64,000 bases of DNA from the NCBI GenBank assembly GCA_022842935.1, contig JALHOP010000001.1, positions 186,001-250,000 of the forward strand, read 5' to 3'. The position numbers were made by a program, and so were the translations under genes. The stretch is from Myxococcota bacterium (GTDB lineage: Bacteria; Myxococcota; XYA12-FULL-58-9; JALHOP01). Shown here piece by piece: positions 5,209 to 17,074 of the stretch. The notes beneath the pieces were generated by a model. The model was not told where the DNA came from. It saw nothing but the letters and a program-made list of their open reading frames with translations, and searched no databases. Position 1 is the stretch's first letter; each line of letters opens with the position of its first letter.

Positions 5209-5490
5209 ATGACCGTCGAGCTATCGCAACGCGAGGCCGCGGCGCTCGATGCCTGCGCCCGGCTCATCCACGCCCGTCGGCTGACGACGCCGGCGCTGCT
5301 GCTGCTTGGCGCCATGCGCCCGGTCCAACGCCTCACCGACGCCTCCATGCGGATGGCTTTGCCCTACATCGAAGCCGTCGCCCCAACGGACATGGTGCAA
5401 GCAATAAGGGCGTTGTTGAACAGGCCGAACGGCGGGCGACTGCTTTGTGACCTCTTGTCCCAGCGCTTGGACGTATTGGACCGCGCATGA
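5209..5490 (+). CDS. Small protein opening the DUF6754-type operon
   Basis: 93 residues, cytoplasmic by composition. ATG 5209 (MTVELSQREAAALDACARL) is taken as start; a longer frame from 5185 adds eight non-conserved residues. No strong Shine-Dalgarno is visible. The stop codon overlaps the next start as ATGA (5487-5490), so the two genes are translationally coupled. The protein is helical with two Leu/Met-rich helices (TPALLLLGAMRPVQRLT and ASMRMALPYIEAV). I do not recognise a family. Its position at the head of a five-gene coupled operon suggests that it is a soluble partner or regulator of the membrane proteins that follow. Confidence 0.7.
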   Translation: MTVELSQREAAALDACARLIHARRLTTPALLLLGAMRPVQRLTDASMRMALPYIEAVAPTDMVQAIRALLNRPNGGRLLCDLLSQRLDVLDRA

Positions 5491-8400
5491 GTCGAGTCAT
5501 CGCGGTCGCTATTGTTCTCTTTCCCTTTACTCTCGACGCGCAGACGCCCGCGGTCGAAGCCGTCGCCGAGCGCACACAGGTCGGAAGTCTCGCCCGCACG
5601 GCCGCAGCGTTGCACAACACGCTCGACGTGTATCGCCTGGCGCTTTCAGAGCTCGTGCCCGCGACACACGTCGTGCGCGAAGCGGGGGAGACCGAGGGCG
5701 CATCTCCCGAGACGCCGATCCCGCCGGCCGCAACTGAAGTCTTCGCGCGGCTCGCGCGCGTGGTGCCACTGCGCGCCGCCGCAGAGGCTTTGCCGGCCAT
5801 CAGTCGCGGCTACCATGCCGAGGCCCTCGACGCGCTCGAGGCACTCGCGGCCGCGCGTACGTTGGGAGAGACCGGCGCGCCGCTCAGCGCCCTCTCTCGT
5901 GCTCTCGAGCGACTCGAGCGCGGCGCCGCCGACATCGTCGACTTGTTTTCGCGCCAGCGACCGATGCAGGTCCGTATCGTCGACCCGGAGACGGCCCTCG
6001 ACGATGTAAACGAAGCCCTCGACGAAGTCGCTGCAGCAGAACAGCGCATCGGCGATCTGCGCGCGTCACGGGGAACACCAGCCGACCAGCTGCGCGCCTT
6101 CATGCGTCTCGAGGTCGCGCTTGGTCACGCGCTCGACCTCATCGCCGCCGCCGAGGAGTCGGGTGTGCGCATCGGCTTCGACATGCAGAAGCCGACGGCC
6201 ACGTTCGCACATGTGGCGGGTGAGATGGTGAGTCTTCGCCAAGCCTTGTCGAGTGCCGTGGCGGACCTGACCGTCGCGCCAACGCTTGCTCTCGCGTCGG
6301 TCCATGCGCACGAGACCACAGCGCTCTCCGAAGACGGCAACCAACGCTATCGCAATCTGAGCGTTTCTTTCAGCGGGGCGCGCGCCGCGAACGTCGCGGC
6401 GGTACGCGTTGAACGTCTCGCCAATGCCGACGACGTGACTCTAGCCTTGTTGCAGCAGACCTTGTGTCTCGGCGCCGACTTCGCGCAGGCGCAGGCGCGT
6501 ACGCGCGAGGCCACCGTGGAGCCGTCGCGGGGGCGTCTCACCGATCTGACCCTCACCGAAGGGCGGTATCGCGCGAGCTTCGTCGAGCCGCCTGGGGAAT
6601 CGGCCGTGCGTTCGGAGATCGTGCTCACGCCGGTAAGCGCTTTCGGCGTCACGGGAGAATCCACCCGCGTCCCGGTCGCGCATCTCGCGCGAGACGTCGG
6701 CGAACCGCGCGCCCTGCGGGCTTCACTCGAGCGGGTCGACCCGCGTGAGCCGCGCTTCTATCGCGACTTCGACGCCGTGCGCGTCGCGTGGGCGCGGTCC
6801 ATCAGTGACGTTGCACCGGATGACCGTCTGGCGAGCACGGCCCGCTCGAACCGCGCGAGTGTCGTGACCGCTTATCGCGTTGCCCGTATCTCCGGTCAGA
6901 AGGCCATCGTCGTCGGTAAGACCGCCGCGGGTGTCACCGAGCTCGTCGACCGCCCGAGTGTCGCTGAGCTCGCTGCGGGAGTGCGCTATCGCGTAACTGC
7001 TCTTGCAGGCAACGGGGTCGAGGTCGTCAGCAACGAGGCATGCGCTCCGCAGGTGCAAGTCGATCTTCGCGATGACGTGCAGCTGGCGCGTCTGGGAGCC
7101 GGGAGCTTGTCACGTCCCGCGAGCTTCGAGCGCATCGTCGAACACGAGCTCGAGAGTGACGTCACCCTCGCGAAAGCACGAGCCGCGTTCGAGATGCGCG
7201 GCGCGGCCCAGCAGGAAGCGCTGCTCGCGCGTTGGTGGCGGGGCGTTCCTATGCGTGAGCGGACGGCGTGGCTTGCGCGCTGGCCTTTGCTCATGAGCCA
7301 AACCGAACGCGAGGCTTGGCTCTCGAAGGCCCACGAAGGCATGCGCCCGGAGGACTTCGAAGCATGGGCGCTCCCCGAGCTGTACCTCGCCGACCAACCA
7401 GAAGAGGTGCGCAACGAGGTCGACCGCTGGTGGTCTCTCATCGGCGTCAAGGCGCGCACCGCGAGCTACAACCGCTGGATCGCGAGCCTCTCGTCGAGCC
7501 ACCGCGTCTACGTCGAGCGCAATGCCCGGGCTGCCGGCCAAGAAGGCCTGGATGCGACACGCCCACTGCAAGTCATGGTCTGGTGGGCCTCGCGTGGAGA
7601 GACCGAACACCAGCGGGCCCGCGCCTGGTGGGAACGCCTCGACACCGACGCGCAGCGTTTGCGTATGCAAGCCTGGATGACGCGTCTCGATCCGGTGGTG
7701 CAAGTCGCCGCCCGCTGGCCCGATCTCGAAGTGCGTGCTGTGAGCGAGCGCGACGCGCTCTTCGCTACCGCCTATCGCGACCTGCCTGACGCTCTCTGGC
7801 GGCGCGCGCTCGCGTGGATGGCCTGGGAAAACATGGACAGCGCTGCCCGCGCCGGCATCGTGCGCAGCGAGGTCCCCGCGCTCGCACGACTTGCTGCCCA
7901 GATTGCCTACGCAGTGCGACCACTCGACGCCGGGCTTGGCTTCAATCTTCGCATGTTGCTCGCGTTTTCGGTCTTCTCGACGATATTCGCCGCGGCGGTC
8001 CGTCGCGTCGTCCGCTCGCGCGGAGCCCTGAAGCTGCGTCGCCCCCCGGCGTTCGACGCCTTCGACCGCATGGCCGCTGCGGCACACGCCACTGCCGGGC
8101 CGGTTGTTGCGGTACCCGGCGTCAACTCCGTAAACGATGCGCAGACGCTCGCAGGTCTGTACCTCATCGATCGAGCGGCCGACGTCACGGCGACACACGA
8201 GACGACCCTGGTCGTCGCCGACCGCGAGCCCTTTGTCCGTCATAGCGGTTCCGAAGAAGGCGTGTCGGGGGCCGGCTATGCGCTCGATGAGCACCGCGCC
8301 ATCGCCGCGAACGCCATTCCGTTCTTGCCAAGCGGTCGCGAGGTCATCACGCAGACTCCCGGAACCGCCGCCCTGTTCGTCGGCCGCCTGCCGCCCGAGA

Positions 8401-8654
8401 CCTTGCTGGTCACGAGCGCGCTGCGTCCAGATGCCGTCTCGCTCACCGCCACTGACGAGCACGCGTCTCTCGCGGTCGCGGCTGCGAGCCAAGGCGAGGT
8501 TCTCGTGGGCGACGCCGTGTATGCGGCGGCGGCCGACAGCTCACGCGCGCCTGCGCTGCTTGCTACTGTGCTCGCGGGCGACCGCATGAAGATCCTCCTC
8601 ATCGCGGTTCTCGGGGTGTTGGTGATCTTGGCGAGCAGTGGAGCGTTCGGGTGA
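5487..8654 (+). CDS. Large DUF6754-like membrane protein with FN3-like and Trp-rich regions
   Basis: 1055 residues. Signal peptide at 1-19 (ends TLDAQ). A helical part runs to about 260. About 280-540 is beta-rich and resembles fibronectin-III-like repeats (RYRNLSVSFSGARAANVAAV, GVRYRVTALAGNGVEVVS). About 575-790 is unusually rich in Trp (WW, RW, AW pairs). A transmembrane helix follows at about 818-840, then a domain like the C-terminal DUF6754 domain (FDRMAAAAHATAGPVVAVPG, then NDAQTLAGLYLIDRAADV), and a last helix at 1034-1055. DUF6754 proteins of Chloroflexota, Planctomycetes and archaea have the same order: FN3, TM, then a domain beginning with a GRPVLYVPG-like motif. No function is known. 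The start overlaps the previous gene and its stop overlaps the next (GTGA). Confidence 0.75.
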   Translation: MSRVIAVAIVLFPFTLDAQTPAVEAVAERTQVGSLARTAAALHNTLDVYRLALSELVPATHVVREAGETEGASPETPIPPAATEVFARLARVVPLRAAAEALPAISRGYHAEALDALEALAAARTLGETGAPLSALSRALERLERGAADIVDLFSRQRPMQVRIVDPETALDDVNEALDEVAAAEQRIGDLRASRGTPADQLRAFMRLEVALGHALDLIAAAEESGVRIGFDMQKPTATFAHVAGEMVSLRQALSSAVADLTVAPTLALASVHAHETTALSEDGNQRYRNLSVSFSGARAANVAAVRVERLANADDVTLALLQQTLCLGADFAQAQARTREATVEPSRGRLTDLTLTEGRYRASFVEPPGESAVRSEIVLTPVSAFGVTGESTRVPVAHLARDVGEPRALRASLERVDPREPRFYRDFDAVRVAWARSISDVAPDDRLASTARSNRASVVTAYRVARISGQKAIVVGKTAAGVTELVDRPSVAELAAGVRYRVTALAGNGVEVVSNEACAPQVQVDLRDDVQLARLGAGSLSRPASFERIVEHELESDVTLAKARAAFEMRGAAQQEALLARWWRGVPMRERTAWLARWPLLMSQTEREAWLSKAHEGMRPEDFEAWALPELYLADQPEEVRNEVDRWWSLIGVKARTASYNRWIASLSSSHRVYVERNARAAGQEGLDATRPLQVMVWWASRGETEHQRARAWWERLDTDAQRLRMQAWMTRLDPVVQVAARWPDLEVRAVSERDALFATAYRDLPDALWRRALAWMAWENMDSAARAGIVRSEVPALARLAAQIAYAVRPLDAGLGFNLRMLLAFSVFSTIFAAAVRRVVRSRGALKLRRPPAFDAFDRMAAAAHATAGPVVAVPGVNSVNDAQTLAGLYLIDRAADVTATHETTLVVADREPFVRHSGSEEGVSGAGYALDEHRAIAANAIPFLPSGREVITQTPGTAALFVGRLPPETLLVTSALRPDAVSLTATDEHASLAVAAASQGEVLVGDAVYAAAADSSRAPALLATVLAGDRMKILLIAVLGVLVILASSGAFG

Positions 8655-9277
8655 CCAAGGCAGGAGCCCCCATCGTTTGTGCCATGGTCGCGGCTACCTA
8701 TTGGGCGCTCGAGCCAGTCATCGACGTCGCGCGCGATGGGTGGCTCAAGACGTTTGCCGCCGACCTCGTTGTCGCAATCATCGCTGTCGTGACACTCGTC
8801 GCTATCGCCGGCGTCGTCGCGCGCGAGGGAGGTAAGGTTCTACGGCGCGAAAGCGGACATTTGAGCTCGGCCATCGTGCTCGTTGCCTTCGCCGTGACGT
8901 TCGCCATTGGTGTCGCTCAGGGCCCCGCTGGCGATTGGTTCGTGTGGATCTTCGACTACGTTTACGCGCCGCTCGAGAGCAGCCTGCTTGCACTTGTGGC
9001 GTTCGCGCTCGTCGACACGGCGCTGCGTCGCATGCGCGCTCGCTCTGGCGAGACCGCCCTGATCATCGCCACCGCTGCCATCGTCATGTTGGGTCGGGCG
9101 CCGGCGACCAGCGCGGCCGCAACGCTGCTGACTCCGGTTGCTGACTGGCTCACGCGCGTTCCGAACGTCGCGGGGCAACGCGTGCTGCTCATCGGCGCCG
9201 CTATTGCTGCCTGCTCGACGTTGTTGCGCCTCTTGCTTGGTGTCGAACGCGACTACCTCGGGGAGCGCCGCTCGTGA
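8651..9277 (+). CDS. Polytopic membrane protein of the DUF6754-type operon
   Basis: 208 residues with about six hydrophobic segments, for example DLVVAIIAVVTLVAIAGVV, SSAIVLVAFAVTFAIGV, LLALVAFALV and LLIGAAIAACSTLLRLLLG. Starts at GTG overlapping the previous stop (8651-8654) and ends overlapping the next start (9274-9277). There are no transporter signatures or charged pore residues that I can name. In operons with DUF6754 proteins a polytopic partner of this size is usual as far as I recall. It probably forms a complex with the 5487 and 10116 proteins in the inner membrane. Confidence 0.75.
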   Translation: MTKAGAPIVCAMVAATYWALEPVIDVARDGWLKTFAADLVVAIIAVVTLVAIAGVVAREGGKVLRRESGHLSSAIVLVAFAVTFAIGVAQGPAGDWFVWIFDYVYAPLESSLLALVAFALVDTALRRMRARSGETALIIATAAIVMLGRAPATSAAATLLTPVADWLTRVPNVAGQRVLLIGAAIAACSTLLRLLLGVERDYLGERRS

Positions 9278-10119
9278 CGCGCTGGCTCGCCATCGCTGCT
9301 CTCGTCGTCGCCGTGGCTGTCGGTCTCTGCTCGACGCGTCCCGCGCCCCGCGCGGGCATCGCTCCACAGGTGACTCAAGCGCATGCCGCGATCGCGGAGC
9401 TGACGACCGGCGATCTGCTCGTGCTTGCGGTCGACTTCGACCCCGCCAGCGTTCCCGAGCTTGGCCCCTTCGTGCGCCTTACGCTCGACATCGCTCTCAT
9501 GCGCGGTGCGCGTGTGATTACCGTGAGCCTGACGCCACACGGGGCCATGCTCGCTGAGCGTTTCTTACGTGAGGCTCTCGCCAGTCGCAAAGCGACCTAC
9601 GGTCGCGATGCCATCAACCTGGGGTTCCTCGAAGGGCGGAGCGCCGCTGTCCACCTCACCGGAATCCCACTCCAGCGTATGGCCAGCCGTGATCACGCTG
9701 GCAATGCCCTCGGTGATTTACCGCTCGCTGCCGAGGTCTCTCGCCTCGCGGACGCCGCGTCGTTCGTGGTGGCCGCGAGCGGCGCCCCGGGCGCGTTCGA
9801 GTGGTTGCTGCAGGGGCAGGGGCGATTCGCGCGTAAGTTGGTCATCGCGACGACGAGCATCGATGGGCCGCAGCTAGCGGCGTTTCACGCCAGCGGACAA
9901 ATCTCTGGGCTCGTTGCCGGTGCTCGCGACGTGGCCGCTTTCGCGGACATCGCCGCGAATGACCCCCGATTACGAGGCGATAGCGATGCCGTTGGCCATT
10001 TGCGCGAGCTCGCAGCGCAAATGCGGGCGCAGCGCTGGGCGCATCTCGCGCTCGTTCTCTGCTTGGTCGCGGGTCAGGGCCTCACTCTCTGGCGGGGCCG
10101 CAAGAAGGGGGCTACGTGA
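9274..10119 (+). CDS. Bitopic protein with an alpha/beta domain, DUF6754-type operon
   Basis: 281 residues. One transmembrane helix at each end (about 4-20 and about 256-272) brackets a 230-residue alpha/beta domain. The domain begins TTGDLLVLAVDFDPASVPEL, continues with RGARVITVSLTPHGAMLAE and NLGFLEGRS, and has GQISGLVAGARDVAAFADI near its end. This matches a widespread uncharacterised family I remember as starting with a SFDYDPAS-EL-PM motif and encoded beside DUF6754 proteins. No catalytic residues are evident. It is coupled by 4-bp overlaps on both sides, so the domain probably works in a fixed stoichiometry with its neighbours. Confidence 0.75.
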   Translation: MTRWLAIAALVVAVAVGLCSTRPAPRAGIAPQVTQAHAAIAELTTGDLLVLAVDFDPASVPELGPFVRLTLDIALMRGARVITVSLTPHGAMLAERFLREALASRKATYGRDAINLGFLEGRSAAVHLTGIPLQRMASRDHAGNALGDLPLAAEVSRLADAASFVVAASGAPGAFEWLLQGQGRFARKLVIATTSIDGPQLAAFHASGQISGLVAGARDVAAFADIAANDPRLRGDSDAVGHLRELAAQMRAQRWAHLALVLCLVAGQGLTLWRGRKKGAT

Positions 10120-10877
10120 TCGGGCCGCTCATCGCTTTGCTGCTGACCTTCGCGGTGCTTTCCTTCGTGTGGCGCGACAATCCGCTATATCGGGTGGCGG
10201 AGGGACTGTTCCTGGGGGTCGCCCTCGGCCTCTTCGCGGCCTTCGAGGTACGTCAGGTGCTTCTGCCGCGCATCTGGGACCGTCTTGCCGCAGGTCCCGC
10301 GACGGGCCCCGCCTGGGTGACCACTCTGCTCGTCGTCCTCGGGTTAGCGCTGATGCTCGCCCGGCGAGTGCCACCGCTCGCCTGGCTGGGTCGGCTACCC
10401 GTCGCGGTCGCGGTCGGGTCGCTCGCCGGGATGGCCGCCGCCGGGTTTGCGCGTACGGTGCTCGTTCCGCAGGTCGGGGCATCGGCGGCGTCTCTCGTCA
10501 TCACCGACAGCCTGTCACACGAACGGAGCGTCTGCTTGCTCGAGTCACAGCCGGCCAACGCGCTCACCAATATCGTCTGTAGCTTTGGTCCCTATCTCAA
10601 CCAGCTGCTGATCCTTTTCGCCGTCGTCGCCGGACTCGTGTATTTCGTTTTTTCTCGCCGTGAGAACAAAGGCTTACGGGCAGTGAGTCGATTTGGCGGC
10701 TGGATCGTCATGATGACCTTGGGAGTGACCCTCGGCAGCATGGCGATGGCACATTTTGCCGTCACCATCGGCCGGGCCCAGACGATGATGGAGACGCCAG
10801 GACTTGCCGTTTTGGCCCTGGCAATCGTGGTTTTGACACTATTGTATCTGCGGCGTGACCCGCCCCGGGCCGTCTGA
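10116..10877 (+). CDS. Seven-helix membrane protein closing the DUF6754-type operon
   Basis: 253 residues, about seven hydrophobic helices: IGPLIALLLTFAVLSFVW, GLFLGVALGLFAAFEV, TTLLVVLGLALML, LPVAVAVGSLAGMAAAGFA, LLILFAVVAGLVYFVF, GGWIVMMTLGVTLGSMAMA and LAVLALAIVVLTLLYL. The loop between helices 4 and 5 is polar and contains two cysteines (SVCLLES, NIVCSF). GTG start overlaps the previous stop. It is the last gene of the coupled set; the next gene follows after a gap with a perfect -35-like TTGACA. No known transporter family is recognisable. Confidence 0.75.
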   Translation: MIGPLIALLLTFAVLSFVWRDNPLYRVAEGLFLGVALGLFAAFEVRQVLLPRIWDRLAAGPATGPAWVTTLLVVLGLALMLARRVPPLAWLGRLPVAVAVGSLAGMAAAGFARTVLVPQVGASAASLVITDSLSHERSVCLLESQPANALTNIVCSFGPYLNQLLILFAVVAGLVYFVFSRRENKGLRAVSRFGGWIVMMTLGVTLGSMAMAHFAVTIGRAQTMMETPGLAVLALAIVVLTLLYLRRDPPRAV

Positions 10878-10924
10878 CGTTGACAGTTCGAAAGGATTCC
10901 TGGCAACTGCCGGGGCCAAACGCG

Positions 10925-11566
10925 ATGCAACACCCCCACGCAGTAAGTAAGCAGGCCTTCGCGAGCCCATTGCTCGAGCGTCTGAGCCGCTGTCATCCGG
11001 TGGTGCCGGCACTCATGTGGGTGCCCGTCTCGGCATATCTATCTTATCTTGGCGTAAGCCAGGGGCTTTCGCTTCTGACATCGGCCGGTCTTTGGGGCGG
11101 CGGCTTTTTCTTGTGGACCTTCTGCGAGTACCTGCTTCATCGCTGGGTCTTCCACTTCGAATTCAAGAACCCGGCCCTTCAGAAGATCTGGTACCCCGTG
11201 CACCGTTTGCACCACGACGTGCAGGAGTGGGATCGCTTGGTCGCGCCGCCGCTCATGTCGGTGCCTCTGTTCTTCGTCTTCCTTGGTCTGTTTTACGCCT
11301 GGCCCGGCGCGCCGTTGATGATGCCGCTCTTCTCGGGCTTCATTGTCGGCTATTTGGGCTACGACTACGTCCACTATTACACACACTTCGCCCGCCCGAC
11401 CTCGTCGATTGGCAAGGGCCTGCGCAAGCGCCACTTGCAGCATCATTTCGCGTTCAAAGATCGATGGTATGGGGTTAGCTCGCCATTGTGGGACTACGTC
11501 TTCGGGACGTACGTCAAAGATGGCGAGCGTTCGCGCCGCCGTGAGGCTTCGGAGTCAGTCGCGTAG
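10925..11566 (+). CDS. Fatty acid (2-)hydroxylase / sterol desaturase family
   Basis: Integral membrane di-iron hydroxylase; in this context it probably 2-hydroxylates the fatty-acyl chain of ceramides. The eight-histidine pattern is present: HRWVFH (about 76-81), HRLHHD, HYYTH and HLQHH, with hydrophobic pairs between them. I use ATG 10925 (213 residues). An in-frame TTG at 10880 coincides with a perfect TTGACA and is more likely a -35 element, although the hexamer 17 bases on (GCAACT) is a poor -10. The C-terminus ends in the family-typical LWDYVFGTY followed by a short basic tail. Serine palmitoyltransferase follows 21 bp downstream, which supports the sphingolipid role. Other FA-hydroxylase members act on sterols or carotenoids. 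Confidence 0.88.
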   Translation: MQHPHAVSKQAFASPLLERLSRCHPVVPALMWVPVSAYLSYLGVSQGLSLLTSAGLWGGGFFLWTFCEYLLHRWVFHFEFKNPALQKIWYPVHRLHHDVQEWDRLVAPPLMSVPLFFVFLGLFYAWPGAPLMMPLFSGFIVGYLGYDYVHYYTHFARPTSSIGKGLRKRHLQHHFAFKDRWYGVSSPLWDYVFGTYVKDGERSRRREASESVA

Positions 11567-11587
11567 CGACCAGGCAGGGATGTAACG

Positions 11588-12823
11588 ATGGATATCTTCG
11601 ATAAGTGCTACGCGTATAACGACCCGCCGCTCGCGCGCTCGCACAACATCTACCCGTATTTTTCGGTCATCGACGAGACCTTCGGCACCGAGGTCATGAT
11701 CGACGGTAAGCGCGTCATCATGGCGGGCTCGAACAACTACATGGGTTTGTCGAGCGACCCACGCGTGAAGGAAGCCGCTATCGCGGCCATCAAGAAATTC
11801 GGCTCGACCTGCTCCGGGTCGCGCTTGCTGAACGGCACGCTATCGCTGCACGCCGAGCTCGAAGAGAAGTTCGCCGCCTTTTTGAAGCGTGATGCGGCTG
11901 CGGTCTTCTCGACCGGCTACACCGCGAACCTGGGCTCGTTGAGCTCGCTTCTCGGCAAGGGCGACATCGTCTACATGGACAAGGGCGATCACGGCTCGAT
12001 CGTCGACGGCGTGCGCTTGGGCGCGGCCGACATGAAGCGCTTCCGTCACAACACGCCCGAGCATCTCGAGCTCTTGTTGCGTGAGGCAGCCCCGGACGCC
12101 GCCAAGATGGTGGTCGTCGACGGTGTCTTCAGTATGGAGGGCGACGTCGCCCCGCTCGACCAGTATGCGGCTCTGCGCAAGCAGTACAATTTCCGCCTCA
12201 TGGTCGACGAGGCGCACAGCATGGGTGTCTTCGGCAAACACGGCCGCGGTACCGCTGAGCACTTCGGTGTCGAAGACGACGTCGACCTCGTCATGGGGAC
12301 GTTCAGCAAGGCCTTCGCATCGCTCGGCGGCGTGATCGCTGGCCCCGCGAAGGTCATCGAGTTCATCAAGCACAAGGCGCGCTCGATGATTTTCCAGGCG
12401 AGCATGACACCTGGAGCCTGTGGCGCTTGCTTGAAGTCGCTCGAAATCGTCCAGGCCGAGCCGGAACGCCGCGAGCGCTTGTTCGCTAACGCGGACCATG
12501 TCCGCAAGGGCTTCAAGGCACTCGGGTTCAACACGCTGCACAGCAACACGCCCGTCGTTCCGGTCGTCATTGGGGATGACCTCAAGACCTTCTCGTTCTG
12601 GCGCGCGTTGCTCGACGCCGGCGTGTTCACGAACCCGGTCATCAGCCCGGCGGTGGCACCTGGACAGCAACTCATCCGCACCTCGTTCATGGCGACGCAC
12701 ACGACCGAGCAGCTCGACCGCGTGCTCGAGACCTTCGACGTGATCGGCCGCAAGTTCGGCATCATCGGCGAGAGCAAGGGGCAGCAGACGAGCTTCGTCA
12801 TCCAGGGTCGTCTCGCCGGCTAG
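11588..12823 (+). CDS. spt: Serine palmitoyltransferase (alpha-oxoamine synthase)
   Basis: PLP enzyme that condenses serine with a long-chain acyl thioester to give 3-ketosphinganine, the first step of sphingolipid synthesis; soluble or peripheral. 411 residues, a typical length. The PLP lysine lies in GTFSKAFASLGG (about K241). VDEAHSMGVFG carries the Asp that binds the pyridine nitrogen, and GDHGSIVDG the ring-stacking His. The whole family also contains KBL, BioF and HemA, which look similar. I assign SPT because of the N-terminal NNYMGLSSDPRV region and because a fatty-acid hydroxylase, a GNAT-type acyltransferase and an epimerase-like reductase lie around it. A GGAT Shine-Dalgarno precedes ATG 11588. 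Confidence 0.9.
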   Translation: MDIFDKCYAYNDPPLARSHNIYPYFSVIDETFGTEVMIDGKRVIMAGSNNYMGLSSDPRVKEAAIAAIKKFGSTCSGSRLLNGTLSLHAELEEKFAAFLKRDAAAVFSTGYTANLGSLSSLLGKGDIVYMDKGDHGSIVDGVRLGAADMKRFRHNTPEHLELLLREAAPDAAKMVVVDGVFSMEGDVAPLDQYAALRKQYNFRLMVDEAHSMGVFGKHGRGTAEHFGVEDDVDLVMGTFSKAFASLGGVIAGPAKVIEFIKHKARSMIFQASMTPGACGACLKSLEIVQAEPERRERLFANADHVRKGFKALGFNTLHSNTPVVPVVIGDDLKTFSFWRALLDAGVFTNPVISPAVAPGQQLIRTSFMATHTTEQLDRVLETFDVIGRKFGIIGESKGQQTSFVIQGRLAG

Positions 12824-12919
12824 AGCTCACGTAAGGTTTCGCGAGCCAACGCGTCGTCGTGACCTGCCGTCACGGCTGAGGCGCGGACCTCTTGCGAGTC
12901 GCCTGCCGATAAGGCGCGC

Positions 12920-13819
12920 ATGTCAGTCCGTACGCCTGCGATTGCCGAGTTGTCGTCTCGACCGGTGACATTGACTCAGCTGGTTCCGCAGGAGCTCTTG
13001 CCCGTACCGGTCGCGGCGCGCGAACCGTCGACGAGCGCCAAGAAGCTCTTCATCCTCGCCGACCGGCTCGTCAGCGACACGCATGAAGCGGCGCTCGGCA
13101 AGGGGAGCTACTTCGGCGAATCAACGCCCCAGTGGCTTCTCAGGACCATGCCGGTTTGGGGTACGGCGCTCGTGGTGGGCGCGGGTGTCGCGCTCGGAAC
13201 CACCTTGGGTTGGGACGAGCCGACTCCGTTTTTCGCGGGCTTGGTCGGTGGCTGCCTATCTTTGGCCGCCATCGGCTTGGGCCTCGAGCGGTGGCAGGGA
13301 CCCGCGCGCGCGAAGCCCATCCCGGTCACCGAAGCGCGCCCGTACCTTGACGCGTTCAAGGCCGGCGAGGCGCAGACCCAGGCCCTGGTGACGCGCCTCG
13401 CGACGAGCGCTTCGAGCCTGGTCGCGGCGAAGGGGGTGGCTGGGCAGGAGTTTCGCCGCCAACTCGACGAGCTCGCTGCCGTGAATGTCCAGCTCGACAG
13501 CGCTGCCACGAACCGCATCGACGCGCTCTGCGAGCTCGCGAACAGCATGCCCCGCAAACATCGGCTCGAGGCAACGTCCACACGTCTCATCCTCGCGGCG
13601 TTCGAAAGGCTCGACGTTGCTGACCGTGCGGAGCTGGCGCCGCTCTTGCTCGCGCACCTGTTCAAAGGCGAACGTTTGCGCTGGGCTTTCCGCGACACAA
13701 CGAGCAGCGCGCAGCTCTACAACGCTCTCATCGCCATGCACCCGAGCGGCGTGACCTCGCGCGAGGAGCTGCAGAAGCTCGTCGCTCCCGTGCCTTCGCA
13801 GACGCGCCCGCACGACTGA
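12920..13819 (+). CDS. Unknown protein with two membrane helices (tandem paralogue 1)
   Basis: 299 residues. The first 40 are disordered and Pro/Ala/Ser-rich with no signal peptide. Two hydrophobic helices follow (VWGTALVVGAGVALGTTLG and FAGLVGGCLSLAAIGLGL), then a helical domain of about 190 residues. That domain is clearly related to the next gene's product: compare ARPYLDAFKAGEAQTQALV, GVAGQEFRRQLDELAAVN and LLAHLFKGERLRWAF with the equivalent parts of the 13933 protein. No Shine-Dalgarno is visible. TGCCGATAAG lies 7 bases before the ATG and could be an extended -10 of a leaderless mRNA. I do not recognise the family. It sits inside the ceramide cluster but need not belong to it. Confidence 0.65.
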   Translation: MSVRTPAIAELSSRPVTLTQLVPQELLPVPVAAREPSTSAKKLFILADRLVSDTHEAALGKGSYFGESTPQWLLRTMPVWGTALVVGAGVALGTTLGWDEPTPFFAGLVGGCLSLAAIGLGLERWQGPARAKPIPVTEARPYLDAFKAGEAQTQALVTRLATSASSLVAAKGVAGQEFRRQLDELAAVNVQLDSAATNRIDALCELANSMPRKHRLEATSTRLILAAFERLDVADRAELAPLLLAHLFKGERLRWAFRDTTSSAQLYNALIAMHPSGVTSREELQKLVAPVPSQTRPHD

Positions 13820-13932
13820 GCACTGATCGGTCAATTCCGCAGCGCTGCGGGCGAGCTTGGCGTTCCACATGCCTGACCCTTCGTCAGAGCGCTGGCGAGC
13901 ATCCGCCCGCCGCTCGCGCCGATATGGTCAGC

Positions 13933-14835
13933 ATGATGACGACCGAAACGCCCGCGGCTATTGCGCCAGTGTCGCGCCTCGCCAGTGGTAGCGTAGGCCT
14001 CTTTGCCGCTGACCTCGGTCGCGGCGCCGTCGTGCCCGTGATGGGCGCGGCATCGAGCCCCGTCGCACGCGGCTTCGCGCTCGATGATGCCATGTGCCGA
14101 GCGACGTCACCCCTTGGCGCTAGCGGCCGGCGGGGCGTGATTGCATTCCTTTCGGCGGGAACGGATGCTAGCGAAACACTGGCGGCTGTCGGCGCTGTTG
14201 CCTCGCTTGTCGGTTGTGGCGGCTTGGGACATGCGGTGTTGGGCGGAGGCGGCGGAGTCCTGCTTGGCCTTCTCGCCGGAGTCTGCCTCATCGGCGCATC
14301 CATTGCGCTCGTGCTACGAACCGATCAGCGCGCTGCCGAGGCCCCTCTCGATGCCCGTCACGTGCAGCCATTCGTCGAAGCGTTTCGGGAAGGCGATGCG
14401 CCAACGCGCGTTCTCGTCGCGACGATGGCCAAGCGTTGGGAAGGTGTGGTGCGGGCGCGCGGAATCGTCGGCCAGCACGCGCGCGCGCAACTCGCCGAGC
14501 TCGCCGCGGCAACTCCGCAGCTCGACGACGCTCGGGCCAAGTCGATCGATGCAGTCGCCGGTGTGCTCGCGGAGCTCCGGGACGAGAACGGCAGGCACGT
14601 GACGGAGCTCGGCAAGGGTTCGTGCGAGAGGCTCATGAGCCTCGTGGCGCAGCTCGTGCCCGAAGACCGTGTGCACGTGAGCGCGTTCTTGCGTGAGCGC
14701 TTGTTCGATGGCGAGCGGCCGCGTCTTAAGGCCGAGGATCAGCCGAGCTATCTGAGGCTCTACGAGGTCGTTAGCGACAAGGCGATGTTCCCGCTCGTGA
14801 CCGCCGCACAGCTCCAGGGCCGCGACGCAGCCTAA
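13933..14835 (+). CDS. Unknown protein with membrane helices (tandem paralogue 2)
   Basis: About 300 residues, a tandem relative of the preceding protein: ARHVQPFVEAFREGDAPTRV, GIVGQHARAQLAELAA and LRERLFDGERPRLKAEDQ align with it. The N-terminal 80 residues are low-complexity and unrelated, followed by a Gly-rich hydrophobic stretch of 60 residues (ETLAAVGAVASLVGCGGLG, VLLGLLAGVCLIGASIALV). I place the start at ATG 13933 (13936 and 13924 are also in frame) because CCGATATG at 13919-13926 resembles a -10 and overlaps the 13924 codon. No Shine-Dalgarno is seen for any of them. Function is unknown. Confidence 0.65.
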   Translation: MMTTETPAAIAPVSRLASGSVGLFAADLGRGAVVPVMGAASSPVARGFALDDAMCRATSPLGASGRRGVIAFLSAGTDASETLAAVGAVASLVGCGGLGHAVLGGGGGVLLGLLAGVCLIGASIALVLRTDQRAAEAPLDARHVQPFVEAFREGDAPTRVLVATMAKRWEGVVRARGIVGQHARAQLAELAAATPQLDDARAKSIDAVAGVLAELRDENGRHVTELGKGSCERLMSLVAQLVPEDRVHVSAFLRERLFDGERPRLKAEDQPSYLRLYEVVSDKAMFPLVTAAQLQGRDAA

Positions 14836-14969
14836 AAAGAGACACGCCGTTAGGCCCTTACGGACCTGGTTTGGTTCGCTTGGCTCGTTCATCCAAGCTC
14901 GAACGCGTAAGCCCAGCCCCTTGCTTTTCGCTCGCCAGTGCGTTCAATCCGGCCGCAGGAGCGACAGCG

Positions 14970-16085
14970 ATGGTTGAGATCACGACGGTCACTGGTAAGG
15001 GCGACCGCGACGCCTTCATCAAGTTTCCCTGGTCCATCTACGCGGGCGATACGCGTTGGGCACCGCCGCTCCTCATCGAGCGCAAAGAGTTTCTCGACAC
15101 CAAGAAGAACCCCTTCTTCGAATACGCCGAGGTCGCGCACTTTCTCGCTAAGCGCTCTGGTAAGGTCGTCGGCCGTATCAGCGCCGTTCACGACAAGAAG
15201 TACAACGACTTTCACGGCGTCCAACACGTTGGCTTCGGCATGTTCGAGGCCGTGAACGACGTCGAGGTGTCACGGGCTTTGTTTGCCGCTGTCGAGAAAT
15301 GGGGCAGGGAGCGCGGGCTCGCGGCAGTCTGGGGACCCGTGAGCTTCTCGACGAACCACGAGTGCGGGCTTCTGGTCGACGGCTACGACGACATGCCGGC
15401 CATCATGATGACGTACAACCCCACCTACTACGAAAGGCTCGTCGAGGACGCTGGCTACGCGAAGTCGCGCGACTTGTGGGCCTGGGAGCTGTCCGCGCAC
15501 GCATCGGTCCCCGAGAAGATTGGCCGTATCGCCGAGAAGATCCGCGAGCGCGAAGGCATCGTGGTGCGCGGCGCCAACATGAAGAAGTGGGACGAAGAGG
15601 TCGACCTCGCTTTCCAGATCTACAATGAGGCCTGGGAGAAGAACTGGGGCTTCGTGCCCATGTCGCGCGCCGAATTCGATAAGCTCGCCAAGGAAATGAA
15701 GCAGATCGTCAAGCCCGAGCTCGTCCTCATCGCCGAGGTTAAGGGCGAGGTCGCCGGTTTCTCGTTCACCATTCCCGACGTTAACCCAGCCATCGCCAAG
15801 GCCAACGGGCGTCTTTTGCCGTTTGGGCTGCCGAAGATGCTCATGCACTTGAAGAAGTGCGACCGCGCGCGCCTGGTGCTCCTCGGCATGCGGCCGAAGT
15901 TCCGCAAGCGCGGTATCGACGCGATCCTCTACAAGGACACGCTCGAGAAAGCTGGCAAGCTCGGTTTCCGTCGCGGCGAGATTGGCTGGACGCTCGACAA
16001 CAACGACCTCGTCAATCGAGCCATCGAGAGCATGGGCGGCAAGAAGTCGAAGACGTACCGCATGTACGAGAAGTCGCTCTCGTGA
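14970..16085 (+). CDS. cerS: GNAT-superfamily acyltransferase, probable bacterial ceramide synthase
   Basis: 371 residues. N-acyltransferase fold; probably transfers a fatty-acyl group to the amine of 3-ketosphinganine (bacterial CerS, which evolved separately from the eukaryotic enzyme). The N-terminal half has conserved features such as FPWSIYAGDTRWAPPLL and VWGPVSFSTNHECGLLVDG. The C-terminal GNAT half carries ELVLIAEVKGEVAGFSF and GMRPKFRKRGIDAILYK, an acyl-CoA pyrophosphate-binding-like loop. ATG 14970 has AGGAG at 14956-14960; the longer frame from 14871 is not conserved-looking. The stop overlaps the next start (GTGA). The link to ceramide rests on context (SPT upstream, CerR-like reductase coupled downstream), as in Caulobacter, and on recollection of the family. 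Confidence 0.75.
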   Translation: MVEITTVTGKGDRDAFIKFPWSIYAGDTRWAPPLLIERKEFLDTKKNPFFEYAEVAHFLAKRSGKVVGRISAVHDKKYNDFHGVQHVGFGMFEAVNDVEVSRALFAAVEKWGRERGLAAVWGPVSFSTNHECGLLVDGYDDMPAIMMTYNPTYYERLVEDAGYAKSRDLWAWELSAHASVPEKIGRIAEKIREREGIVVRGANMKKWDEEVDLAFQIYNEAWEKNWGFVPMSRAEFDKLAKEMKQIVKPELVLIAEVKGEVAGFSFTIPDVNPAIAKANGRLLPFGLPKMLMHLKKCDRARLVLLGMRPKFRKRGIDAILYKDTLEKAGKLGFRRGEIGWTLDNNDLVNRAIESMGGKKSKTYRMYEKSLS

Positions 16086-17074
16086 AGGCGCTCGTGACCG
16101 GCGCTAACGGCTTCGTTGGCACGCATCTCGTCGAGGCGCTGATTGAGCGTGGGCACGACGTGCGGGCACTGGTGCGAAAGACGAGCGACCTTACGCATCT
16201 GCCGAGAGAACGCGTCGAGCTTGCCTACGGCGATGTTACCGATGCAGCAAGCCTGCCGTCCGCGATGGCGGGCATAGACGTCGTCTATCATGTCGCGGGT
16301 ATTACGAAGGCTCGTTCGCTCGCCGAGTTCGTGCGCGTGAACCGCGACGGGACCACCAATGTCATGTCCGCTGCGGCGGATATGGAGAGGCCCCCGAAGG
16401 TCGTCTTCGTCTCGTCTATCGCCGCTGCTGGCCCGTGTGGCACTGACCGACCACTCGAGGAAGGTGACGCCTGCAAGCCCGTGAGCCGCTACGGCACTAG
16501 TAAGGCGCTGGCCGAAGAGAAGGTGCGCGAGTACGCCGCGAGAGTTCCAGTCACGATCGTTCGGCCGCCCATTGTCTATGGGCCGCGCGACCGCGACGTG
16601 TTCGAGCTGTTCAAAATGGCTGCGGGTGGGCTCGTCGTGCAAGCGGGATTCGCGGCGCGACGCTTTTCCGTCGTGCACGTCCACGATCTCGCGGTCGGCC
16701 TTGCCCTTGTGGGCGAGCGCGGGGCCACCTTGAGCGAGGAAGACGCTGGACGCGGGATCTACTACATCGCCGACGACGGCCCCTTCTTGTGGCGCGAGCT
16801 CGGCGAGGCGGCAGCTGCGGGCTTCGGTCGGCGCGCGCGCACCATCCGGGTGCCAGACGTCATCACCTTTATCGCCGCGTACATCGGCGAGCTCATCGGC
16901 ATGATCCGCAAGAAGCCGTTCGTTGTGAACCTCGACAAGGCGCGCGAGGGGACGGCTGGCCACTGGGTGTGCAGCTCGGCGCGTGCGCGCGAGCTTGGCT
17001 TTGCTGTAGCGAAGCCACTTGGCGAGCGCTTCCGCGAGACAGCCGTTTGGTATCGCGACAACGGCTGGATCTGA
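16082..17074 (+). CDS. cerR: NAD(P)-dependent epimerase/reductase, probable ceramide reductase CerR
   Basis: 330 residues, extended SDR family. TGANGFVGTHL at the N-terminus is the nucleotide-binding GxxGxxG loop, and SRYGTSKALAEE holds the catalytic YxxxK (about Y137/K141). VYHVAGITK and VTIVRPPIVYGPRD are also typical. A hydrophobic segment near residue 265 (VITFIAAYIGELIGMI) may anchor it to the membrane. GTG 16082 overlaps the stop of the acyltransferase gene, so the two are translationally coupled. In Caulobacter an enzyme of this class, CerR, reduces the 3-keto group of ceramide after N-acylation, which fits this gene order. NAD-epimerases of sugar metabolism are the alternative. Confidence 0.8.
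   Translation: MKALVTGANGFVGTHLVEALIERGHDVRALVRKTSDLTHLPRERVELAYGDVTDAASLPSAMAGIDVVYHVAGITKARSLAEFVRVNRDGTTNVMSAAADMERPPKVVFVSSIAAAGPCGTDRPLEEGDACKPVSRYGTSKALAEEKVREYAARVPVTIVRPPIVYGPRDRDVFELFKMAAGGLVVQAGFAARRFSVVHVHDLAVGLALVGERGATLSEEDAGRGIYYIADDGPFLWRELGEAAAAGFGRRARTIRVPDVITFIAAYIGELIGMIRKKPFVVNLDKAREGTAGHWVCSSARARELGFAVAKPLGERFRETAVWYRDNGWI

Follow-up and report, generated by a model that had tools for sequence, protein, structure and literature searches.

A putative ATPase-free form of a conserved seven-gene DUF6754 system in a Myxococcota bacterium

Background

Group II ECF vitamin transporters have one ATPase module that is common to several substrate-binding subunits (PMC4820897). The gene cluster described here has a similar arrangement in its canonical form, with a shared ATPase for several membrane modules, and this likeness is one of logic and not of descent. 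The ECF ATPase is an ABC ATPase, whereas that of the canonical cluster is of the ASKHA/GlmL type; the canonical cluster differs further in having two polytopic subunits and large ectodomains. Two of the protein families concerned carry names, PF20539 (DUF6754) and PF13941 (GlmL/MutL). A search of open-licence PMC papers found none on DUF6754 or its combinations, and the seven-gene DUF6754/GlmL system is apparently undescribed so far.

The window analyzed here is a stretch of 64,000 nucleotides from a Myxococcota bacterium (assembly GCA_022842935.1, contig JALHOP010000001.1, positions 186,001 to 250,000 of the forward strand). An original prediction, made from the letters of this stretch, drew attention to five consecutive coupled genes around a DUF6754-like protein. 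We compared these genes, named A, D, E, F, and G below, with relatives sought across bacterial and archaeal genomes.

Results

The canonical cluster in relatives

With E as the query, a scan of 84,980 species genomes from bacteria and archaea yielded 418 tblastn-confirmed relatives. Their loci are spread over more than a dozen phyla, most of them uncultured. The loci of the best 80 of the 418 were read, and these include WOR-3, Stahlbacteria, Eisenbacteria, Zixibacteria, Latescibacterota, and Fermentibacteria, as well as Planctomycetota, Cloacimonetes, Deltaproteobacteria, and others. The order D-E-F-G is common to most of the 80, the remainder being mostly truncated by contig ends, and tandem D-E-F-G modules are common among them. 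A subset carries A-B-C immediately upstream, and the complete clusters, first recognized in two complete loci (L003 and L006), read A-B-C-D-E-F-G. The predicted partnership of the gene with the DFDPAS motif (F) and DUF6754 genes in distant phyla is seen in these loci, and the five families co-occur in other genomes in the conserved order A, D, E, F, G. The proposal of a five-gene system thus holds for the conserved D-E-F-G module and fails for five as the full set, which numbers seven genes with B and C. This gene order fits a D-E-F-G complex and may reflect one.

B is a GlmL/MutL-family ASKHA ATPase (PF13941, 432 bits), with the GlmL and Or-4 accessory proteins as its nearest NCBIfam models. 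C is a barrel-sandwich protein for which RnfC_N is the only match, and a weak one; no NCBIfam names exist for D, E, F, or G. A long frame in another locus (L111 1-2244, contig 7 of G190) holds a GlmL/MutL-like region of 282 bits and a C-like region of 101 bits, and is likely a B-C fusion paralogue. A second PF13941 match falls on similar long frames (880-1033 aa) in G199, G207, G208, and G215.

A glycine cleavage P-protein was found upstream in 8 of the 70 flanks scanned, and a lipoate-protein ligase downstream in 11 of 66. Glycine cleavage genes (gcvPB, at times gcvT/H), often with lplA, adjoin loci L011, L022, L038, L042, L045, L051, L061, L064, L065, L066, and L068. Some of these flanked loci are near relatives of one another, but the gcvPB link spans loci of WOR-3, Fermentibacter, and Scalindua. 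Just upstream of A, a protein of ~155 aa with a hydrophobic N-terminal half is encoded in ten loci (L006, L011, L022, L042, L051, L061, L064, L066, L069, and L077).

The window locus

The window carries the locus A-D-E-F-G on the forward strand at 5209-10877, as five intact ORFs over 5.7 kb (Table 1). Its D, E, F, and G homologues are adjacent, in the same order and on the same strand as in the core module, and A adjoins D directly where B and C sit canonically. Profiles built from relatives only, with the window rows left out, match all five ORFs (A, 3.5e-10; D, 5.3e-19; E, 3.1e-40; F, 2.6e-48; G, 1.1e-43), which identifies them as real conserved genes. The A profile was drawn from 20 relatives, and window A also matches the A protein of L003 (phmmer, 1.1e-6). 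The B and C profiles gave no match among the window ORFs. The codon-position G+C of the window genes has the pattern of coding genes. A promoter and terminator scan was uninformative.

Table 1. Features of the A-D-E-F-G locus and of the genes downstream of it, in window coordinates
Feature	Position	Strand	Description
A	5209-5490	+	ATG start, 93 aa, soluble; precedes B in relatives
ATGA overlap A/D	5487-5490	+	position of B and C in the canonical order
D	5487-8654	+	ATG start, 1055 aa; signal/anchor, ~800-aa ectodomain, TM, DUF6754, TM
FN3-like domain of D	6771-7067	+	residues ~429-527; relatives' ectodomain model
Trp-rich region of D	7119-7886	+	residues ~545-800; helical by eye
DUF6754 domain	7962-8636	+	D residues 826-1050; PF20539, 61 bits
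GTGA overlap D/E	8651-8654	+	read directly from the sequence
E	8651-9277	+	GTG start, 208 aa, six-helix membrane protein
GTGA overlap E/F	9274-9277	+	read directly from the sequence
F	9274-10119	+	GTG start, 281 aa, Rossmann-like domain between N- and C-terminal helix, DFDPAS motif
GTGA overlap F/G	10116-10119	+	read directly from the sequence
G	10116-10877	+	GTG start, 253 aa, seven-helix membrane protein, DNPxY motif after helix 1
FA-hydroxylase family	10880-11566	+	start possible 3 bases after G
Serine palmitoyltransferase-like	11588-12823	+	NF047600, 3a2b
~300-aa protein	12920-13819	+	similar layout to its neighbour
~300-aa protein	13924-14835	+	similar layout to its neighbour
GNAT-family protein	within 14871-16085	+	
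SDR/epimerase-family	16079-17074	+	

The junction letters ATGA, GTGA, GTGA, and GTGA confirm that the five consecutive genes each overlap their neighbour by 4 bp. Among relatives, such overlaps were observed at 5 of 96 D/E junctions, 15 of 97 E/F junctions, and 34 of 88 F/G junctions. These counts indicate that gene order is conserved and exact coupling is not, so the exact translational coupling that had been read as a property of the system does not carry over to relatives; genuine as they are, the overlaps are nothing unusual in an operon. Hydropathy agrees with six helices in E and seven in G, and in D it gives a signal/anchor and two helices either side of DUF6754. The description of F as bitopic does not hold in the strict sense, since hydropathy places one helix at each end, two in total.

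Protein D scores above the curated gathering cutoff of PF20539 (E=1.3e-16; cutoff 27 bits), which places its C-terminus in the DUF6754 family. The prediction had been staked on such a match and on the co-occurrence of the families in other genomes, and both were found. It had also called the window version divergent, and indeed the PF20539 match is distant and 35 of the 53 near-invariant positions (at least 95% conserved in 41 relatives) are lost, with 18 kept. The ectodomain is much longer than in canonical D proteins. An ectodomain model from 39 relatives matches the FN3-like domain weakly (18-20 bits), and the same D-family profile matches titin FN3 structures; of the FN3-like repeats originally proposed, this one domain stands, and a second is suggested only by eye. 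The Trp-rich region has eighteen tryptophans in about 200 residues, seemingly in a helical repeat, and finds no counterpart in the aligned D relatives. When the window's own D was used in a pattern scan of the 84,980 genomes, no relative appeared, and thus no close copies of this variant are available. Another divergent full-length DUF6754 was observed in G208 (contig 5, 16239-16946; 109 bits), a genome with seven DUF6754 copies whose other full-length ones score 317-424 bits.

Distribution of B and C

For the genomes without B near D-E-F-G, all reached through loci from the best 80 of the 418 matches, a PF13941 search found B elsewhere in the genome in 24 of 24 cases. Full-length B mostly occurs once per genome, compared with one to seven copies of DUF6754, and canonical genomes usually have several D-E-F-G modules for a single B, beside which the fixed stoichiometry originally suggested from the coupling is no more than a conjecture. 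DUF6754 is present in 4 of the 195 genomes of the window's phylum. Exactly three of the 195 have PF13941, namely the other DUF6754 genomes, one of which (G090) also belongs to the 24. Meanwhile, the window genome has no PF13941 match in the locus or on any contig, and no match to C even at E<=1; as positive controls, three relatives from this phylum returned C at E<1e-160. The absence of both genes rests on searches of an assembly of 46 contigs that is 97.43% complete. Of the 27 different DUF6754 genomes in which B was sought, the window genome is the sole exception, and the form without B and C is known from this one genome so far. It has a single copy of E, and its glycine cleavage P-protein lies on a different contig from the locus.

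Constraint and phylogenetic placement

To explore whether the window preferentially retains positions that are at least 95% conserved in relatives, we compared them with the other columns of each family. E keeps 15 of 27 near-invariant positions (p=0.0035), F keeps 16 of 24 (p=6e-5), and G keeps 18 of 29 (p=0.0067), in each case above other columns. DUF6754, the most conserved of the compared families among relatives (52% mean identity), keeps its near-invariant positions no better than other columns (p=0.5), and the difference in preferential keeping between D and E, F, and G together was also significant (p=0.0026). This contrast is our main argument: constraint kept in E, F, and G and lost in DUF6754 points to a membrane core that is still working and a cytoplasmic domain that has changed its job. 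In a tree of E, F, and G, the window is nested in a group of eight rows that has full support, the others being canonical and mostly from Myxococcota and Deltaproteobacteria. With 2.2 changes per site in FastTree and 4.6 in IQ-TREE, the window branch far exceeds the median end branch of about 0.3, which makes the placement only indicative.

Predicted folds and topology

An AlphaFold2 model of a canonical DUF6754, taken from the relative at L007 and not from the window, has a pLDDT of 84.7. Its best VIA matches are a sirtuin (Sir2; Z 12.5, rmsd 3.5 over 141 residues), transhydrogenase domain III (Z 10.2), and a CODH component (Z 9.1), at about 10% identity; Foldseek returned E-values of only about 1e-3 to 1e-2. 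We take all three to be DHS-like NAD/FAD-binding domains, and the relative's model suggests that DUF6754 has a putative DHS-like NAD/FAD-binding Rossmann fold. The model of window F (pLDDT 89.9) has a Rossmann-like domain between two helices, with VIA matches to MT0777 (Z 10.0), CODH epsilon (9.2), and Sir2 (8.9) and low Foldseek TM-scores of 0.2-0.4. The model suggests a Rossmann-like fold for F less specifically than for DUF6754, and we give F no enzyme class, as its fold matches are only middling. A HAD phosphatase and a GldG-type domain, both considered for F, were absent among the matches listed.

The predicted DUF6754 and F domains share the same order of strands and helices. This is a likeness of predicted fold only, as profile comparison of D and F finds nothing past a helix; E and G are likewise not alike. 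Searched against the PDB, the sequence profiles of C, E, F, and G found no convincing relative, and FN3 of D was alone in matching; F had no match among plasmids. From the positive-inside rule, we infer that DUF6754 is cytoplasmic and that the F domain lies on the outer side.

Downstream genes

Directly after G, a run of same-strand genes occupies 10880-17074 and is a probable sphingolipid-synthesis cluster. The serine palmitoyltransferase-like protein scores 492 bits against NF047600, below that model's cutoff of 640, and 3a2b is its closest solved relative. The two ~300-aa proteins matched nothing in Pfam or NCBIfam. Bacterial ceramide synthesis involves Spt, the acyltransferase bCerS, and the reductase CerR; which flippase moves sphingolipids and what supplies periplasmic CerR with reductant are open questions (PMC11087976). 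A search for empty-site synteny in the same order found no orthologous downstream gene.

Discussion

The window locus matches the canonical cluster in the homology and order of A, D, E, F, and G, in a DUF6754 domain above cutoff, and in an FN3 domain in the ectodomain. It differs in that no B or C was found in locus or genome, in its lost DUF6754 positions and much longer ectodomain, and in being a single module without gcv or lplA neighbours. With its composition and gene order, the lack of B and C in the assembly, and the constraint pattern established as above, we lean towards reading it as a derived, ATPase-free form of the seven-gene system, whose membrane core most likely works without ATP input. 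The loss of the B/C pair favours an ATP-independent membrane complex, and this mode of operation is proposed by analogy.

A simpler account is that the canonical system is intact and that B and C are just missing from the assembly, which is in 46 contigs and slightly incomplete, and in many relatives these genes do lie away from D-E-F-G. We consider this very unlikely: two genes would both need to be missing, the 4-bp A/D overlap falls exactly at the canonical B/C site, and a loss of DUF6754 constraint would be unexpected if B and C were still present. Neither does a decaying relic, in which the remaining genes are under relaxed selection after the loss of B and C, seem likely to us. The long branch of E, F, and G, the indifferent retention of conserved DUF6754 positions, and the patchy distribution, with one such genome in the phylum, are in keeping with decay. 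However, the five ORFs are intact and tightly overlapping, their codon-position G+C is that of coding genes, D has an enlarged, not a reduced, ectodomain, and E, F, and G preferentially keep canonical residues.

Other readings concern what the complex does. It could be a transmembrane sensor in which FN3 and the F domain act as receptors for an external ligand, E and G relay the signal, and DUF6754 (canonically B) is the output. A large ectodomain with FN3, Rossmann-like domains inferred on both sides of the membrane, and one shared cytoplasmic partner for many modules would suit this role, but no recurrent output domain, such as a kinase, cyclase, or DNA-binding domain, turned up in the scanned flanks of canonical loci, and to our knowledge known sensors need fewer than two polytopic subunits; on balance we find a sensor rather improbable. 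Recruitment of the complex to sphingolipid synthesis, where it would move a lipid intermediate or bring reducing power across the inner membrane, is suggested by the FA-hydroxylase, Spt-like, GNAT-, and SDR-family genes directly downstream on the same strand, by the open flippase and CerR reductant steps (PMC11087976), and by the resemblance of the L007 DUF6754 model to transhydrogenase domain III. We regard it as quite doubtful, given that it is seen in one genome only, that canonical loci adjoin gcv and lplA and not sphingolipid genes, that the downstream genes are only candidates for bCerS and CerR, and that FA-hydroxylase relatives in the same order are too remote for synteny to be usable. 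The narrower proposal that a core freed from its ATPase was recruited as the missing trans-membrane step of the downstream pathway, by lipid flipping or by delivery of electrons or reductant, is a long shot. It nevertheless offers, for one lineage, a testable connection of this core to sphingolipid genes.

Under the ATPase-free reading that we prefer, D-E-F-G would canonically form a membrane complex with E and G as its embedded core. DUF6754, as the DHS-like Rossmann domain of D, would face the cytoplasm, and the FN3 ectodomain of D and the Rossmann-like domain of F would face outwards. The cytoplasmic pair of B, the GlmL-family ASKHA ATPase, and C would energize or assemble this complex, with one pair serving several modules. 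In the window lineage, B and C would have been lost, A joined to D, and the ectodomain of D enlarged. DUF6754 would thereby have been freed from its canonical constraint, most simply through no longer docking B and C, a presumed role. The retained core might then be a carrier or channel driven by a gradient, or serve as a sensor or scaffold at the cell envelope.

Hundreds of genomes, spread over more than a dozen phyla, carry the canonical cluster, which combines a GlmL-family ATPase with a membrane core of two subunits. The window form amounts to an internal experiment, a natural loss of the ATPase and its partner in a form where only DUF6754 has lost canonical constraint, which makes DUF6754 the likely interface with B and C. 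It predicts a self-standing D-E-F-G complex, which would be a smaller system for reconstitution and may show what the membrane part does alone.
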